Positions 17,501 to 24,495 of a stretch of 54,791 bases of DNA are shown piece after piece; position 1 is the first letter of the stretch; each line of letters opens with the position of its first letter. A program made the translations under genes and the position numbers. The notes under the pieces are model-generated. The model saw nothing but the letters and a program-made list of their open reading frames with translations, did not search any database and was not told where the DNA came from. This stretch comes from Halonotius pteroides (GTDB lineage: Archaea; Halobacteriota; Halobacteria; Halobacteriales; Haloferacaceae): assembly GCF_003605635.1 (NCBI RefSeq), contig NZ_QMDW01000015.1, positions 1 to 54,791 of the forward strand, written 5' to 3'.

Positions 17501-17761
17501 ATGGGATCGAAAAATATCGGCATCAAAAAAGATGTCTACGAGCGGCTAAAAGCGCACAAACGCGGTGATGAAAGCTTCAGCGAGACGCTTGATCGACTCA
17601 TCCACGAGCGTGAGTCCGACTGGCGGACGAACGCTGGCTTTCTCTCTCAGCACGAGGCTGACGACCTCGAAGCGGCGGTTGAGCAAGGCTTTGTGGATCT
17701 CAATGTTGCGTTCGATGAAGATGGTACCCGAATCGACGAGCGGCTTTCAGAGGAACCGTGA
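17501..17761 (+). CDS. vapB: VapB-family antitoxin
   Basis: The 86-residue protein has an N-terminal RHH-like DNA-binding segment (KNIGIKKDVYERLKAHKRGD, then ESFSETLDRLIHER) typical of archaeal VapB (DUF217-type) antitoxins, and an acidic C-terminus (LEAAVEQGFVDLNVAFDEDG) that would neutralise the toxin. The stop overlaps the vapC start by four bases (GTGA). The candidate operator lies just upstream. Confidence 0.85.
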   Translation: MGSKNIGIKKDVYERLKAHKRGDESFSETLDRLIHERESDWRTNAGFLSQHEADDLEAAVEQGFVDLNVAFDEDGTRIDERLSEEP

Positions 17762-18144
17762 AGCTCGTCGACGCGTCGTTTCTTATCGACTACGCCCGCG
17801 GTGACGACGCCGCAATCGCGTATTTAGCCGCCCACGACACCGAAGAGATCGGTGCACCGACTATCGTCCTCTCGGAGCTGTATCGCGGGTTGATGATCAC
17901 CCAAGAGATGACACAAGCTGAGGCGATGTCGAAATACGAGTGGGTGCAGCCGGTGCCGTTCACGAACGAAACGGCTGCGGAAGCCGCCGAAATCTACGTC
18001 ACGCTCCGTGCCGATGGCGAACTGATCAACAAAAGCGACATCTACATCGCTGGCACTGCTCGCTCGCTCGGTGTGCCACTCGTCGTCGACGACACTCATT
18101 TTGCTGCTATCGAGGATCTGAAAACTGATACGTATCGAAGATAA
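17758..18144 (+). CDS. vapC: VapC-family PIN-domain ribonuclease toxin
   Basis: The 128-residue protein is a complete PIN domain. The acidic active-site residues are D5 (MKLVDASFLIDY), E40 (VLSELYRG), D94 (INKSDIYIAG) and D111 or D112 (LVVDDTHF). PIN toxins cut structured RNA such as tRNA or rRNA in a metal-dependent way. GTG 17758 overlaps the antitoxin stop, so translation is coupled. The frame is intact, so the module is probably functional. Confidence 0.9.
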   Translation: MKLVDASFLIDYARGDDAAIAYLAAHDTEEIGAPTIVLSELYRGLMITQEMTQAEAMSKYEWVQPVPFTNETAAEAAEIYVTLRADGELINKSDIYIAGTARSLGVPLVVDDTHFAAIEDLKTDTYRR

Positions 18145-18232
18145 TTCGCAGCTGTTGTGTGACAGACGGCAAGCCGCACAGTGTCGTCGCTGTCGGCACA
18201 ACAGCCAAACCGCTGGGTCGCCACGATTGGGT

Positions 18233-18697
18233 ATGCAGCAGTCGGATGAACTAACCGAGACGGTCGACGGGGTCGACACCGAGATCCCATCGAGTGCCGA
18301 TGATGACGGCGATGCGGGTCGCCTCGGTGGCCGCTTTTCGGCGAAAGCCCTCCTCGTGTCGCTGGTCGCTGTCGCCATCGGTGTCGTTGGCGGCGGCGCG
18401 ATCCCGATCATCGGTAGCATCGGCTCGGTTGCCGGTGTTTTCGCGGCAACGTTCGTCCTTGGCATCCTCGCCGGCGACGCTCGGTATCTCGAAACCGGCC
18501 TTGCCGGCGGTGTGGTCGTCGGCATCAACTTTGCGCTGAGCCTGCTCACCTCCGCCGCGCTCCCGATTGGCGTCGACTTCTTCCAGCAGTACGGGCTCGC
18601 CTTCGGCGGCCTTGGCGTCGTTCTCGGTGCGGGCCTCGGGCTCGTCGGCCACTACTTCGGCCGGGATCTGCGCGACGGGCTGACGCGAGAGATTTAG
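18233..18697 (+). CDS. Glycine-rich multi-helix membrane protein (DUF456/DUF5518-like)
   Basis: The 154-residue protein has an acidic N-terminal tail of about 40 residues and four predicted membrane segments rich in Gly and Ala (ALLVSLVAVAIGVVGGGAIP, SVAGVFAATFVLGILAGDAR, GLAGGVVVGINFALSLL, AFGGLGVVLGAGLGLVGHY). Small Gly-zipper proteins of this type are common in haloarchaea and their function is unknown. The ATG at 18233 directly precedes the acidic tail. The stop overlaps that of the convergent DUF1405 gene. Confidence 0.65.
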   Translation: MQQSDELTETVDGVDTEIPSSADDDGDAGRLGGRFSAKALLVSLVAVAIGVVGGGAIPIIGSIGSVAGVFAATFVLGILAGDARYLETGLAGGVVVGINFALSLLTSAALPIGVDFFQQYGLAFGGLGVVLGAGLGLVGHYFGRDLRDGLTREI

Positions 18698-19374
18698 TCC
18701 GTCCGCACGTCGCCCAGCCGGTCGAACTGCCAGGCCGCCAGCGCGACAACACCGACCGACAGCGCGACTGTCAGCGTCGGCACCACCACGCCGGGCTCAT
18801 AGCGCAACGGCGGATAGAACCCGAAGCCGTAGTCGACGATGTCGTTTGCGAGCAACAGCCCAAGCGACAGGCCGAGAGCCCCCCGTGTTGTTCGCCCGTA
18901 GTGGAGGATGGCGAAGGCCAGCGCGACGAACAGCAGGTGGGTGCCGATAATACCCCAGTAGGCATACAGCGCGTCGGCGTCGAACCCGATATACAGCCCC
19001 ACGCGGCGGTTGAGCGCGACGACGACCCACAGGCCGTACTTGATGAGCCAGACATAGGCGAGCGTGTGAAGATACGCTAGTGGACGGTTTGTCGGCGTTG
19101 ACGCCAACGGTTGGTTGAGCGTCGGCAGCAATGTTGCCAGCGACAGCGTCGCCAGCGCGATGGCGGTTGGCGAATCCGCATACAGCGGCCACAGCAACGT
19201 CGAAACTGCGGGCATGGTGTCGACGTAGAACTGCACCCCAACCAGGAATGCGACCGCGCCGGCGACGAGCAACATGACCAGACTCGGGCCATGAGAGAGA
19301 TACGACTCGGCGACCGCTCTCGGTATCGGTCGTCGGCGCGTCGGTGTCGTCGCTCGGTCATCCGGCCGCGACAT
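18694..19374 (-). CDS. DUF1405 membrane protein
   Basis: The 226-residue protein has about six transmembrane helices and the DUF1405 signatures VGVQFYVDTMP, LWPLYADSPTA near the N-terminus, IKYGLWVVVAL in the middle and LANDIVDYGFGFYP with a conserved Asp near the end. The function of DUF1405 is not known. It is 48 bases downstream of the MacB-like permease on the same strand and may be co-transcribed with the transporter. Its stop overlaps that of the convergent gene. Confidence 0.88.
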   Translation of the reverse strand: MSRPDDRATTPTRRRPIPRAVAESYLSHGPSLVMLLVAGAVAFLVGVQFYVDTMPAVSTLLWPLYADSPTAIALATLSLATLLPTLNQPLASTPTNRPLAYLHTLAYVWLIKYGLWVVVALNRRVGLYIGFDADALYAYWGIIGTHLLFVALAFAILHYGRTTRGALGLSLGLLLANDIVDYGFGFYPPLRYEPGVVVPTLTVALSVGVVALAAWQFDRLGDVRTD

Positions 19375-19422
19375 AGCTGGGTTCTGTGCGGCCAGCTACA
19401 GGTGTTTATCGGTCGGCCCCGC

Positions 19423-20658
19423 TCACTCGTGTCGGAGCGCGTCGATCGGGTCGATGCGGGCGGCCCGCCAGGCCGGATACAGGCCGGCGACGATCCCGAC
19501 AACAACGCCGACACCGACGGCGAGAGCGATCCAATCAGGGGCCAACGCGAACGTCACGTCGGCGTAGGCGGCAGCCCCGCGGCCGACAAGGAGCCCGAGC
19601 GGGACGCCGAGCAGCGAGCCAAGCGTTCCTAACAGCGCGGCCTCGATAACAAAGATACTCATTATATCGCGGTTGCGCGCGCCGACAGCTTTCATGATCC
19701 CGATCTCGCGGGTGCGCTCGGTGACGCTGACCAACATCACGTTGGCGATACCGATCGCGCCGACGACCAGCGAGATAACGCCGATCCCGGTCACAAACCG
19801 GGTGATGCGCTCGATCACGTCGCTGATCTCATCGATGAAATCACTCCCCGAGCGGGCGACCAACTCGGTGTCGCTCGCCGACAGCTGACGGGCATCGGCG
19901 TCGTCAGCGAGATAGGTCTCGATCGCTTCGCGCGTCTCGGCGGTCTGTCGTGGATCGCTGACGACGGTTATCTGTGGGTAGGCCCGTTGTCGCACCCCAG
20001 CCGAGGGGCTTTCGACGACCGCCGCATAGAAAGGATCGACCGGCGCGTAGAGCCGCGGCTGGCGGGCAAAGTTGCTCACCGGCAGCTCGCCGCGGGTACC
20101 GTTGACGATACCTGTTACCGTAACCGGTCGCTCCTCGCCGTCAGGATACAGCAGCGTCAGCGTTGACCCGGTTGTCAGATTCTCACGAAAGCCGGTCGCC
20201 AATCGCTCGTTGACGACCACCTCGCGGTCGCCGCTGGTGAACGAACGCCCTGCCACGGTCGACCCGGCGGTGATGCTTTCTGGTGTCGTTGCGGTCACCT
20301 GTGATCTGGCAAGCGTCTGATTTCCGGCACGTATCGACGACACCTGGATTGAGCCGCGTGGTAAGGCAGCCGTCACACCATCGATCTCGCTGATCGCCGC
20401 AAGATCAGTGTCGGTGAACACCGGCTGCAACACCCGGTCGAACCCCTCGTCGTCGCTGGGGGTACCGAAAACGTAGATGTTGCCCGCGTTGCTGTCGCCG
20501 ATATCGCCGATGATCTCGGCTTGGACGCTGGCTCCGAACGTCGCAAACGTGATCACCGAGGCGATGCCGATGACGATGCCGACGACGGTCAACGCCGAGC
20601 GAAGCTTGTGGGCCCGCACCGACCGCACAGCGATTCGGAGCCCTTCACGGCCATCCAT
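19423..20658 (-). CDS. ABC transporter permease, MacB/FtsX type
   Basis: The 411-residue permease starts REGLRIAVRSVRAHKLRSAL, then transmembrane helix 1 (VVGIVIGIASVITFATFG), a large extracellular domain of about 220 residues (MacB core-like, with VTAALPRGSIQVSSIRAG and GDREVVVNERLA), and three C-terminal helices starting with GVISLVVGAIGIANVMLVSV and TREIGIMKAVGARNRDIM, the FtsX domain landmark. Such permeases do not import solutes; they act by pulling on substrates or partners outside the membrane. Its ATG shares one base with the stop of the ATPase gene. Confidence 0.92.
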   Translation of the reverse strand: MDGREGLRIAVRSVRAHKLRSALTVVGIVIGIASVITFATFGASVQAEIIGDIGDSNAGNIYVFGTPSDDEGFDRVLQPVFTDTDLAAISEIDGVTAALPRGSIQVSSIRAGNQTLARSQVTATTPESITAGSTVAGRSFTSGDREVVVNERLATGFRENLTTGSTLTLLYPDGEERPVTVTGIVNGTRGELPVSNFARQPRLYAPVDPFYAAVVESPSAGVRQRAYPQITVVSDPRQTAETREAIETYLADDADARQLSASDTELVARSGSDFIDEISDVIERITRFVTGIGVISLVVGAIGIANVMLVSVTERTREIGIMKAVGARNRDIMSIFVIEAALLGTLGSLLGVPLGLLVGRGAAAYADVTFALAPDWIALAVGVGVVVGIVAGLYPAWRAARIDPIDALRHE

Positions 20659-21398
20659 CAGGCCTCACCCGTAGCTTCGATCGACCCGATCTCGCCGTCG
20701 GTGATATGGACGATCCGGTCGGCGCGCTCGGCGACATGGCGTTCGTGGGTGACAAGCAGGATTGTGTTGCCCGCGGCATGGAGCTCATCAAAGATGTCCA
20801 GCACGGTCGCGCCGGTGTCGGTGTCGACGTTGCCGGTGGGTTCGTCGGCCAGGATGAGCGCCGGATCGGGTGCAAGCGCGCGAGCGATGGCGACTCGCTG
20901 GCGTTGGCCGCCGCTAAGCTCGTTGGGGACATGGTCGGTGCGATCGCCCAGTCCAACCGCCTCTAAGCGCTCGACCGCGCGGTCGATCCGGTCGGCCCGC
21001 GACCAGCTATCGAACACCAACGGGAGGGCGACGTTTTCGACGGCGGTCAGCCGCGGCATCAGGTTGAACGTCTGGAAGACAAAACCGATGTCAGTGCCAC
21101 GGATCGCGGCGCGTTCGTTTTCGCTTGCTGTCGATATCGGCTTGCCGTCGACGGCAACATGGCCAGCGGATGGCGTATCGAGTCCGCCGATCAGGTTCAA
21201 CAGGCTGCTTTTGCCGGAGCCACTCGGCCCCATGATCGCGGTGTACGAGCCTCTTGGGAGCGTAAGGGTCACCTCATCGAGTGCGGTTACCTGCCCCCCG
21301 ACAGTGTAGTGTTTCGACACCTCATCGACGACGACTGTGGGCTCGGTCTCGCCGGCCTCGGTTACGGCTGTTGTCGCGGTCGCGGCTGTCTCGCTCAC
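20658..21398 (-). CDS. ABC transporter ATPase, LolD/MacB type
   Basis: The 246-residue protein has Walker A GPSGSGKSS, Q-loop FVFQTFNLMPRLTAVENV, signature LSGGQRQRVAIARAL, Walker B LILADEPTGNVD and the H-loop LLVTHERHVAE, all typical of the LolD/MacB/FtsE branch. It powers the adjacent permease. GTG 21398 is preferred because a TATA-like cgttgatag on the minus strand lies about 27 bases upstream; longer in-frame starts to 21452 exist and would only add non-conserved residues. Confidence 0.9.
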   Translation of the reverse strand: MSETAATATTAVTEAGETEPTVVVDEVSKHYTVGGQVTALDEVTLTLPRGSYTAIMGPSGSGKSSLLNLIGGLDTPSAGHVAVDGKPISTASENERAAIRGTDIGFVFQTFNLMPRLTAVENVALPLVFDSWSRADRIDRAVERLEAVGLGDRTDHVPNELSGGQRQRVAIARALAPDPALILADEPTGNVDTDTGATVLDIFDELHAAGNTILLVTHERHVAERADRIVHITDGEIGSIEATGEA

Positions 21399-21505
21399 AC
21401 ACAGCTGTTGGCCGGCTGCGCCTATCAACGTTGGCCACCGGTTGATTCCCACCAGCTACCTCCCTCATCGGAGCAATGTACTTACGGCGCAAGCACGTAC
21501 ACTCG
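21399..21505. promoter_or_regulatory. Divergent promoter region of the LolD-like and LolA-like genes
   Basis: The 107-base gap has a TATA-like tgtacttacg at about 21477-21486 on the plus strand, 25 bases before the ATG at 21506, and cgttgatag on the minus strand near 21422-21430 before the GTG at 21398. Both predict leaderless transcripts. A shared control region would link the ABC transporter to the LolA-like protein. Confidence 0.45.
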
Positions 21506-22579
21506 ATGATGAGTTCTACTCCCTTCAGTCGTCGCCTCGGCGTGCTAGCCGCCCTCCTTGCGGTCGGTCTGTTGGCCGCTGGCGCGGCGACCGGCCTCCC
21601 CGGCATGGCTGTCGATGACCAGCCGTCCGGCGACGAGATCCTTGATCGCGTTGAGACCCGATACGATGCCGCCGACACGCTCAGCGGGACGGCGACCGTG
21701 ACGGTCGAAAACGAGACAACAACGTCGACGGCGACCGTCGAGTACGCCGCCAAACAACCCGAAAAGGTCGCCTACACGGTTGAAAAGGCCGGCACAACCT
21801 ACGAGGCTGGCTCGAACGGCAGCGTCGCCTGGGCGGTCGGCGACAACCGATCGTACGCCCGCGAGATCCCAACCGACGCCGAGATTGAAGCCTACGAGGC
21901 GAGCGGCGATCGCGAGCGGCTCCCGGGCGAAGCTACCCAGTACGGCTCGCTAACCGATCCGGTCTCCGGATCGAACGTCACCGCGACGCTCGTTGAGACC
22001 ACCGACCTCGACGGCGAGTCCGCCTACGTTGTCGACATCGAGTCGACCGGCGACGCTACCGCCGCCGGCACGCTTTGGGTCGACACCGAGGACAGCCGCC
22101 TACTGCAGGCGACCGCGACCGACGGCACCAACGAGACGACCGTTCGGGTCACCGAAACCAACTTCAACGTCAGCATTCACGACAGCACCTTCGAGCCGCC
22201 GGCCGACCGGGTGTCGGTGACAACGACTGACACCTACGACAGCTTCAGGGCGGTTCAGTCGGCGACCGAGCTCTCGCTATCGTCATACAACGCTGACACG
22301 TTCACGACCGCTACCGTTATCAGTCGAGCAAACGGCCAGGCTGTTGTCCAGCAGTACGGTGTTGACGGCGACACCGTCTCGGTGATCACGACAAGCGGCG
22401 TGTCGATGCCGTTCGATCAACTCGACGATGCGGCGACGGTGACCATCGATGGGCGGTCGGCAACCGCCGTCGAGCGTGACGACCGCGCGGTCGTCTTCTG
22501 GACGACTGATGGGGTTACTACCGCCGTTGCTGTCGAGGGAACGATCGAGGACGCGACCGCGGCCGCGGCGGAGCTGTAA
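21506..22579 (+). CDS. Secreted LolA-like (outer-membrane lipoprotein carrier fold) protein
   Basis: The 357-residue protein begins with a signal peptide (FSRRLGVLAALLAVGLLAAG). Residues about 37-200 match the LolA/LolB beta-barrel pattern: DEILDRVETRYDAADTLSGT, VEYAAKQPEKVAYTVEK and GTLWVDTEDSRLLQATAT followed by VRVTETNFNVSI and STFEPPAD. A C-terminal domain of about 110 residues (VISRANGQAVVQQYGVDG) resembles DUF4367-like modules. LolA homologues carry lipoproteins between membranes in bacteria; archaeal ones have been noticed recently, but their task in a single-membrane cell is unclear. No lipobox is evident, so it is probably released or held by its signal peptide. Confidence 0.8.
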   Translation: MMSSTPFSRRLGVLAALLAVGLLAAGAATGLPGMAVDDQPSGDEILDRVETRYDAADTLSGTATVTVENETTTSTATVEYAAKQPEKVAYTVEKAGTTYEAGSNGSVAWAVGDNRSYAREIPTDAEIEAYEASGDRERLPGEATQYGSLTDPVSGSNVTATLVETTDLDGESAYVVDIESTGDATAAGTLWVDTEDSRLLQATATDGTNETTVRVTETNFNVSIHDSTFEPPADRVSVTTTDTYDSFRAVQSATELSLSSYNADTFTTATVISRANGQAVVQQYGVDGDTVSVITTSGVSMPFDQLDDAATVTIDGRSATAVERDDRAVVFWTTDGVTTAVAVEGTIEDATAAAAEL

Positions 22580-22686
22580 CGCGCTGTTGTGAGCCGCCGT
22601 TCGTGCGTCGTTTTCCTAATTATCGCTGGTGATACCCGCGGGCGAACGCTTTTTGAATGAGCTACCAACCATCCGATATCAGGTAG

Positions 22687-24495
22687 ATGGCGTTCCAGTC
22701 ACCACACCACCACTGCTGTTGTTGCGGCACACCCGTGTCGTGGGCGGCCACCGACACTGACGCCGCAGAGCCGACCACACAGCGGTCGGTCGGATCGGGA
22801 TCGCCCCCGGCTCTGGGAGGCCCGCCGACGATCGGCTCCGACCCGGCGGGGGAGGGAGCTCCCGAACCAGACGGCGGGGTTCAACTCCCGCCACCGATCC
22901 CCAACCCGGTGTGTCGGGACTGTGCGACCACGGCAACCACGCCCACCGGCGACCCGATCGACCCACCGCCGACCTCTTCTGGGGCGTCTGCCCCCCCGGC
23001 CACCGTCCCCGACTTCGGCCCGAATCCCGTCGTTGTCGACGGGGTCACCTGTTGGCGCGTCGGCACCGACGACCGGTGGCAACTCGCCCGCGACGCGGTC
23101 GGCTGTGACTCAGCCCGTGCGTTTCTCCGACAGCATACCGACGCCGATGGCACCCCACTGCGATGGTTCGGGATCGATCACCGCGGCTCGCCCCGACAGG
23201 TGCGGATCGACCCCGACAGCGTTGTCGACTTACTCAGCTTTTGTGAGACGTTTGGCTCCGGCACCGCCTTCGAGATCGAGACGGCTCGTCCTGCGTCACC
23301 GATCGAGCCGCCGGTTGTTGATCCTCAGCGCGCAACGGCATCACACCCAACGCACGACACCCCGCAGGTGTCAGCGTTGACAGCCGAGCCTGCCCCACGT
23401 CGGGTTGTGGTGTCGATCGATGCGGTCGAGACTATCGCTGTGACGCCACAGCCAACGGTAGCGGCCCCTGATCCCGGAGCCACCCCGAAGCAACTCGATC
23501 GCTACGGGCAGTTGGCGGCGGTTGCGCCCGGGGTTATCAACCCCAGCGGCCTCGAAACGCTGCTTCGGACGCCCGATCCACAGGCGCGAGCGACCGCCGT
23601 AGAGATCTTTGAATCCGTTCTCGCCGCGGCAGCCACCTCCGGGTTGACAGCGATCTCGTCGCTGGTGGACTGTCTTGATGCGGGGCGGGTGAGCACACTG
23701 TATGCCCTGCGCTCGCTGGCGCATATCGCGGAGCTGTATCCCGATATCGTCGCCGAAGAGATCGATCCCGTCGTCGACACCGTCACCGCCGATAGCCGGC
23801 TGGTGGCGGCGGCGGCGACACGGCTGTTGCTCTACGTTGCGGAACACAACCCCGAGGCCGTCTTGGATGCTGTCCCCGCCTTCGGCTCGTTGTTGGCTCC
23901 GACGCCGACCCGTGCCCGCCGGCAGGCGTTGGCGACGGTCGGTCTGCTCGCCAAGCCCCATCCCGGGGCGGTACGGCCGCTTGTTCCACAGCTGTGTTCA
24001 CTGTTGGACACCGATGACACTACTTATCGGATCAGCAGTACCGCCGCGCTCGGCCGCGTGACGGCTGTCTACCCAGCGGCGGCGACACCGGCGGTGCCGA
24101 CGCTGGTGGCACAGCTTGAGGCCGACCATCCGGAGCTCCGCGCCAACGCCGTCGGCGTCCTCGGCGATATCGCCAAGGAATTCCCCACCGATATCGCGCC
24201 GTATACCGACGAACTTGCCGCCCGCCTCACCGACGATGATCCAACCGTGCGGTCGAACGCCGCGGGCGCATTTGCGCGTATCGCATCGGTAAAACCCCGA
24301 CGCGTCGAGCCGTTTACCGATACGTTGATCAAGCTGTTGGATGACGAGTGGACGCGAAGCCGTGTCCATGCCTGTTGGGCGTTGGGTCGGTGTGATGCCA
24401 CCGCGGCTGCCGACGCACTCGCCGAGTGTCACCACACTGATCCCGAGGAGTCAGTGCGACAGCGGGCAGCGTGGGCGCTGGAACGCATCGAGTGA
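22687..24495 (+). CDS. Zinc-ribbon plus HEAT-repeat protein
   Basis: The 602-residue protein starts MAFQSPHHHCCCCGTPVSW and has NPVCRDCATT about 75 residues later, so a CxxC...CxxC zinc ribbon is split by a Pro/Gly-rich, low-complexity segment. Residues about 120-200 form a small domain (DGVTCWRVGTDDRWQLARDA, HRGSPRQVRIDPDSVVDLL). After another linker, residues about 265-602 are HEAT repeats, such as RALATVG-like RRQALATVGLLAKPHP, YRISSTAALGRVTAVYP, LRANAVGVLGDIAKEFP and VRQRAAWALERIE. It is cytoplasmic and probably a scaffold. Upstream ctttttgaa at about 22649 is a TATA candidate. Confidence 0.8.
   Translation: MAFQSPHHHCCCCGTPVSWAATDTDAAEPTTQRSVGSGSPPALGGPPTIGSDPAGEGAPEPDGGVQLPPPIPNPVCRDCATTATTPTGDPIDPPPTSSGASAPPATVPDFGPNPVVVDGVTCWRVGTDDRWQLARDAVGCDSARAFLRQHTDADGTPLRWFGIDHRGSPRQVRIDPDSVVDLLSFCETFGSGTAFEIETARPASPIEPPVVDPQRATASHPTHDTPQVSALTAEPAPRRVVVSIDAVETIAVTPQPTVAAPDPGATPKQLDRYGQLAAVAPGVINPSGLETLLRTPDPQARATAVEIFESVLAAAATSGLTAISSLVDCLDAGRVSTLYALRSLAHIAELYPDIVAEEIDPVVDTVTADSRLVAAAATRLLLYVAEHNPEAVLDAVPAFGSLLAPTPTRARRQALATVGLLAKPHPGAVRPLVPQLCSLLDTDDTTYRISSTAALGRVTAVYPAAATPAVPTLVAQLEADHPELRANAVGVLGDIAKEFPTDIAPYTDELAARLTDDDPTVRSNAAGAFARIASVKPRRVEPFTDTLIKLLDDEWTRSRVHACWALGRCDATAAADALAECHHTDPEESVRQRAAWALERIE

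Follow-up and report, generated by a model that had tools for sequence, protein, structure and literature searches.

In bacteria the non-lipidated LolA acts together with an ABC transporter, whereas LolB or LprG are lipid-anchored, and LolA, LprG and LppX are LolA-fold proteins that bind lipids or lipoproteins. RseB is built from a LolA fold and a small C-terminal domain; its partner system RseA/sigma-E is bacterial, and sigma factors are not used by archaea. Type VII ABC transporters are described as extractors that work at the outer leaflet, and two Gram-positive MacAB-like systems are protective, YknWXYZ against the SDP toxin and Spr0693-0695 of pneumococcus against LL-37 (PMC8277102). LhaT (YpjA, a DUF1405 protein) of Bacillus subtilis is an N-acetyltransferase of surface lipoproteins with an acetylated heptaprenylglyceryl carrier as donor, and its authors already proposed an archaeal counterpart because Natronomonas pharaonis has an N-acetylated halocyanin (PMC12345273). 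In the literature we found no archaeal system described for lifting or moving lipoproteins once they are anchored, and nothing relevant on LolA in haloarchaea, on DUF4367 or on archaeal MacB.

The locus analyzed here is located in a stretch of 54,791 nucleotides from Halonotius pteroides (contig NZ_QMDW01000015.1, referred to as the window), and its closest named relatives are the loci of Halonotius aquaticus and H. roseus. The four genes described in an earlier note on this DNA are all real and present in the window as open reading frames, and the fold of the LolA-like protein is confirmed by its family and a predicted structure. The plus strand encodes a LolA/RseB-fold extracytoplasmic protein of 357 amino acids (21506..22579). 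Divergent from it, the minus strand encodes an ABC ATPase of the LolD/MacB/FtsE type (20658..21398, 246 amino acids), identified by NCBIfam, motifs and homologs, and a permease of the MacB/YknZ/Spr0695 type (19423..20658, 411 amino acids), identified by Pfam and predicted structure, with a one-base overlap (TGATG) of ATPase stop and permease start. A DUF1405 membrane protein (18694..19374, minus strand, Pfam PF07187) follows 48 bases downstream of the permease on the identical strand and is judged to stand outside the conserved unit. For the divergent intergenic region (21399..21505) between the ATPase and LolA-like starts, a shared promoter region of 107 bases had been claimed. This length is correct for the starts used, 21398(-) and 21506(+), with 21452 and 21476 as alternative upstream starts, but a shared promoter is not conserved, since in Halonotius aquaticus a gene for an HTH regulator is inserted into this gap. 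At the same locus (L153:3710-4366 and 398-1615), which has this HTH gene between the ATPase and the LolA-like gene, DUF1405 is separated from the permease by a gene for an MFS transporter, and thus insertions flank the ABC genes on both sides.

The LolA-like protein consists of a hydrophobic N-terminus (residues ~9-33), a LolA-like domain (~38-242) and a small C-terminal DUF4367/RseB-like domain (~245-357). From the single sequence the LolA call is weak, with 16.2 bits against Pfam LolA_like (E 0.0086, below the cut-off of 30) and 19.2 bits against NCBIfam LolA1 (E 7e-4, below the cut-off of 100), and of 18 members of its family, 13 give a LolA_like match (2e-7 for the best one) and nine a DUF4367 match. 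As a search of solved structures with the sequence profile of the LolA-like alignment gave no significant match, a structure was needed to assign the fold, and an AlphaFold2 model of moderate confidence was built from the 18 sequences (pLDDT 72.9, pTM 0.55). Alignment of residues 38-242 of this model to the solved LolA 4mxt gives Z 15.3, with 169 residues at an rmsd of 2.5, and many other LolA structures give Z 10-14; the LolA fold named in the earlier note is thus confirmed at the level of the predicted structure. In Foldseek, RseB ranks first over the full length (E 1.7e-11, 336 columns), and this match, together with the succession of LolA domain and small C-terminal domain, points to an RseB-like build, so that the modelled protein as a whole appears to resemble RseB/MucB most. 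It differs from RseB/MucB in being encoded with a transporter; an anti-sigma partner is not expected in archaea, and no RseA/MucA anti-sigma gene was found among the scanned locus neighbours. The earlier note had tied its proposal to linked genes and a hydrophobic cavity. Linkage is indeed the rule (see below), and for the cavity only a crude proxy speaks, the hydrophobic/polar alternation in the LolA-domain strands (1.88 versus 1.24 in shuffled sequences, p 0.012), which fits a LolA domain with one hydrophobic face.

The assignment of the neighbouring genes to a LolD-type ATPase and a MacB/FtsX permease with an outside domain was upheld. The ATPase shows the Walker A (GPSGSGKSS), signature (LSGGQ) and Walker B (ILADEPT) motifs, LolD is its best NCBIfam model with 219 bits, which is below the cut-off of 307.75, and its homologs encoded divergently to the LolA-like gene in linked loci are 59-90% identical. 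The permease scores above the Pfam cut-offs for both FtsX (82.7 bits) and MacB_PCD (80.8 bits) and reaches 65.7 bits against NCBIfam lolCE, below the cut-off of 362.45. Its model shows four long helices (18-56, 271-314, 329-365 and 374-400), with the MacB-type outside domain (MacB_PCD) between TM1 and TM2 and FtsX at the C-terminus. Both proteins together form a type VII (mechanotransmission) ABC transporter. Among solved structures the permease model comes closest to the pneumococcal Spr0695 (Streptococcus pneumoniae; Z 29.1, 25% identity), with LolE (Z 26.6) and MacB (Z 23.1, 29% identity) also matching. As Spr0695 and MacB are nearest, the permease belongs to the monoderm MacB/YknZ type and is not specifically a LolC. 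With LolA-LolCDE of diderm bacteria the haloarchaeal set shares a type VII ATPase and an FtsX/MacB permease accompanied by a non-lipidated LolA-fold protein, and LolE is among the nearest solved permeases. It differs in having a single permease gene at the locus and no LolC/LolE pair, in lacking an outer membrane as target, in the extra C-terminal domain of the LolA part and in sequences that stay below the LolA and LolD cut-offs. With the Gram-positive Spr0693-0695 and YknWXYZ it has in common that ATPase and permease are encoded by two genes in cells with one membrane and, for the pneumococcal system, the nearest solved permease fold. There the partner is a MacA-like adaptor, whereas the conserved haloarchaeal neighbour is the LolA/RseB-fold protein, and a Pfam scan of the permease neighbours (17758-24495) gave no MacA-like adaptor.

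In a family profile search the LolA-like family was found in 32 of 195 haloarchaeal genomes, the family being set by a score gap between at least ~180 bits for its members and at most 136 bits for other full-length LolA-like proteins. The co-occurrence with the ABC genes, suggested in the earlier note as a check, is clear, as all 32 genomes contain the permease and in 30 of them ATPase and permease are divergently adjacent to the LolA-like gene; the exceptions are one genome with the two parts on different contigs (G138) and one fragmented assembly (G139). In a second collection of named organisms linkage is seen at 26 of 33 loci, among them those of Haloarcula, Halococcus, Halosimplex, Halovenus, Halobellus and Natronomonas, and four of the other seven are on short contigs. 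As a control, 12 other genes of the window recur beside the LolA-like gene in 0-2 of 22 loci, whereas ATPase and permease do so in 19 of these 22, and the linkage is far above chance. It holds across proteins down to 30% identity, and mapped on the permease tree it takes three changes versus 8.4 for shuffled labels, with none of 500 shuffles as low. Distances between LolA-like proteins correlate with those between permeases (r 0.92), of which species history alone could account for much. Halosimplex and Halobellus clavatus (L167, L171, L180) have several kilobases between ATPase and LolA-like gene, with the divergent orientation kept. The converse does not hold, as many related ABC pairs occur without the LolA-like gene: permeases with 56-57% identity (G077, G093) and ~90 more distant ones are encoded in genomes without this LolA-like gene, which was absent nearby in all 19 permease loci checked from genomes without the family. 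Thus, the transporter can work without the LolA-like protein.

Two kinds of archaeal LolA-like protein can be distinguished. None of the 21 ABC-linked members has a lipobox, suggesting that the linked family is non-lipidated, while most of the unlinked relatives from haloarchaea, methanogens and other organisms carry one and are predicted lipoproteins. A single group of all haloarchaeal and methanogen LolA-like proteins was therefore dropped, as those below ~140 bits are distinct, mostly lipobox-bearing and without the ABC genes. This split resembles the bacterial one between LolA and LolB/LprG, which we take as a parallel and not as proof. LprG/LppX and the archaeal LolA-like lipoproteins share with the linked family the LolA fold at the cell surface but are lipid-anchored, and those archaeal ones that were checked are unlinked to this transporter. 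Some LolA-like genes occur as tandem pairs or triplets (L121, L127, L128, L130, L238), several with lipoboxes, in haloarchaea and in a methanogen-group genome, again unlinked to this ABC transporter.

The DUF1405 protein, which the earlier note had introduced as a new component, belongs to the same family as LhaT. It matches Pfam PF07187 with 99.6 bits (cut-off 25) and the LhaT equivalog model with 32.2 bits, far below its cut-off of 255, compared to 81-111 bits for the universal haloarchaeal DUF1405 copies, and the motif following the common ND..DY differs in its subgroup. On these sequence comparisons it is a divergent haloarchaeal paralog of LhaT. As the family is present in 157 of 157 good-quality haloarchaeal genomes with one to three copies (three in Halonotius pteroides), its co-occurrence is uninformative. 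The window-type DUF1405 adjoins the ABC genes in Halonotius only and is thus not a conserved neighbour; its orthologs in other genera have a different neighbourhood, and in G084 and G092, both genomes from one related genus, they lie beside GatD and a DUF5518-like gene, away from the ABC/LolA unit. As GatD and the DUF5518-like gene are neighbours of DUF1405 in the window too, this is most simply read as an arrival of the ABC/LolA unit next to the block with DUF1405 within the lineage of Halonotius. On this synteny DUF1405 was rejected as a component of the unit; nor would it be new, as the family already includes LhaT (PMC12345273), and its tie to lipoprotein biology is retained for the family as a whole and not as a part of this unit. 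A second DUF1405 copy of the Halonotius pteroides genome (G000:C38:16625-17197, L081) is broken by an in-frame TGA, being either a decayed gene or an assembly error. At L197-L200 the divergent DUF1405 subgroup has a gene for a winged-helix regulator nearby and often one for a secreted protein, which are candidates for partners of its own. Between GatD and the DUF5518-like gene the window has a PIN/VapC-type toxin-like gene (17758-18144), which is kept in H. aquaticus.

Given the fold, the conserved divergent pairing and the missing lipobox, the LolA/RseB-fold protein is probably a dedicated extracytoplasmic partner of the transporter, a partnership that rests on genomics and predicted fold. 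With genes, predicted folds, divergent pairing and lipobox contrast established, for the physical partnership, the ligand and the direction we infer the following model, to which we give somewhat better than even chances: a two-part haloarchaeal device of a type VII ABC transporter and a dedicated, non-lipidated LolA/RseB-fold partner at the outer face that handles a hydrophobic ligand. The transporter would probably consist of two ATPases and two copies of the one permease, and ATP hydrolysis in the cytoplasm would be converted into movements of its outside domain. The LolA/RseB-fold protein would receive, hold or hand over the ligand at the outer leaflet, with an ether lipid, a lipoprotein anchor or a hydrophobic peptide as candidates. 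DUF1405 would be a separate LhaT-like protein and an incidental neighbour in Halonotius. A more specific proposal, a Lol-like extraction with only one membrane, is conceivable but tentative: the ABC transporter might lift lipoproteins anchored by diphytanylglyceryl, or ether lipids, from the outer leaflet onto the LolA/RseB-fold protein, so that they could be released, relocated or quality-checked at the cell surface, and lipid-anchored LolA-like relatives might, where present, play the part of LolB.

The main rival is efflux of or protection against surface-acting peptides such as halocins, with the LolA-fold protein replacing the MacA-like adaptor and binding the peptide. The known ligands of LolA, LprG and LppX are lipids or lipoproteins, which speaks against a peptide, and we regard this reading as rather doubtful, even if the permease is nearest to Spr0695 and MacB, no MacA-like adaptor was found by Pfam among its neighbours and the patchy spread over 32 of 195 genomes suits an optional defence. 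The protection by YknWXYZ against the SDP toxin and by the pneumococcal system against LL-37 (PMC8277102) also agrees with it. The full-length architecture, being closest to RseB/MucB, would suit a sensor, in which the LolA-fold protein, instead of carrying a ligand, detects lipids or lipoproteins that are mislocalised and acts as a regulator of the transporter or of a signalling protein. This appears unlikely to us, as RseA/sigma-E, with which RseB acts, is bacterial and sigma factors are not used in archaea, and as the conserved partner gene encodes a transporter and no regulator; the HTH gene between ATPase and LolA-like gene in Halonotius aquaticus is not conserved there across loci.

The two remaining readings concern the neighbourhood itself. 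That the genes are merely co-localised, together for no functional reason, agrees with the two genomes in which they are unlinked but is very improbable in view of 30 linked genomes out of 32, of proteins down to 30% identical and of other neighbours that are not retained. A four-part system for lipoprotein maturation, with DUF1405 as N-acetyltransferase, would build on the acetylation of lipoproteins by LhaT, the Bacillus DUF1405 protein (PMC12345273), on the weak match of the window protein to the LhaT model (32.2 bits) and on the 48 bases between permease and DUF1405, which make co-transcription plausible in Halonotius. We consider it highly improbable, since the adjacency is limited to Halonotius with the orthologs located elsewhere, in two genomes beside GatD and the DUF5518-like gene, and since the universal-group haloarchaeal copies suit LhaT better.

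In summary, the role of LhaT in the DUF1405 family was already known (PMC12345273), and what is added here is the conserved pair of a LolA/RseB-fold protein and a MacB-type transporter in haloarchaea. It offers a defined gene pair for deletion in Haloarcula. Haloarchaea have many lipoproteins, and if a LolA-fold protein and a type VII ABC transporter do act as a pair in these single-membrane cells, the Lol design would need no outer membrane. Even if the ligand should be a halocin or a lipid, this would still be the first archaeal LolA/RseB-fold partner of a MacB-type transporter that we are aware of.
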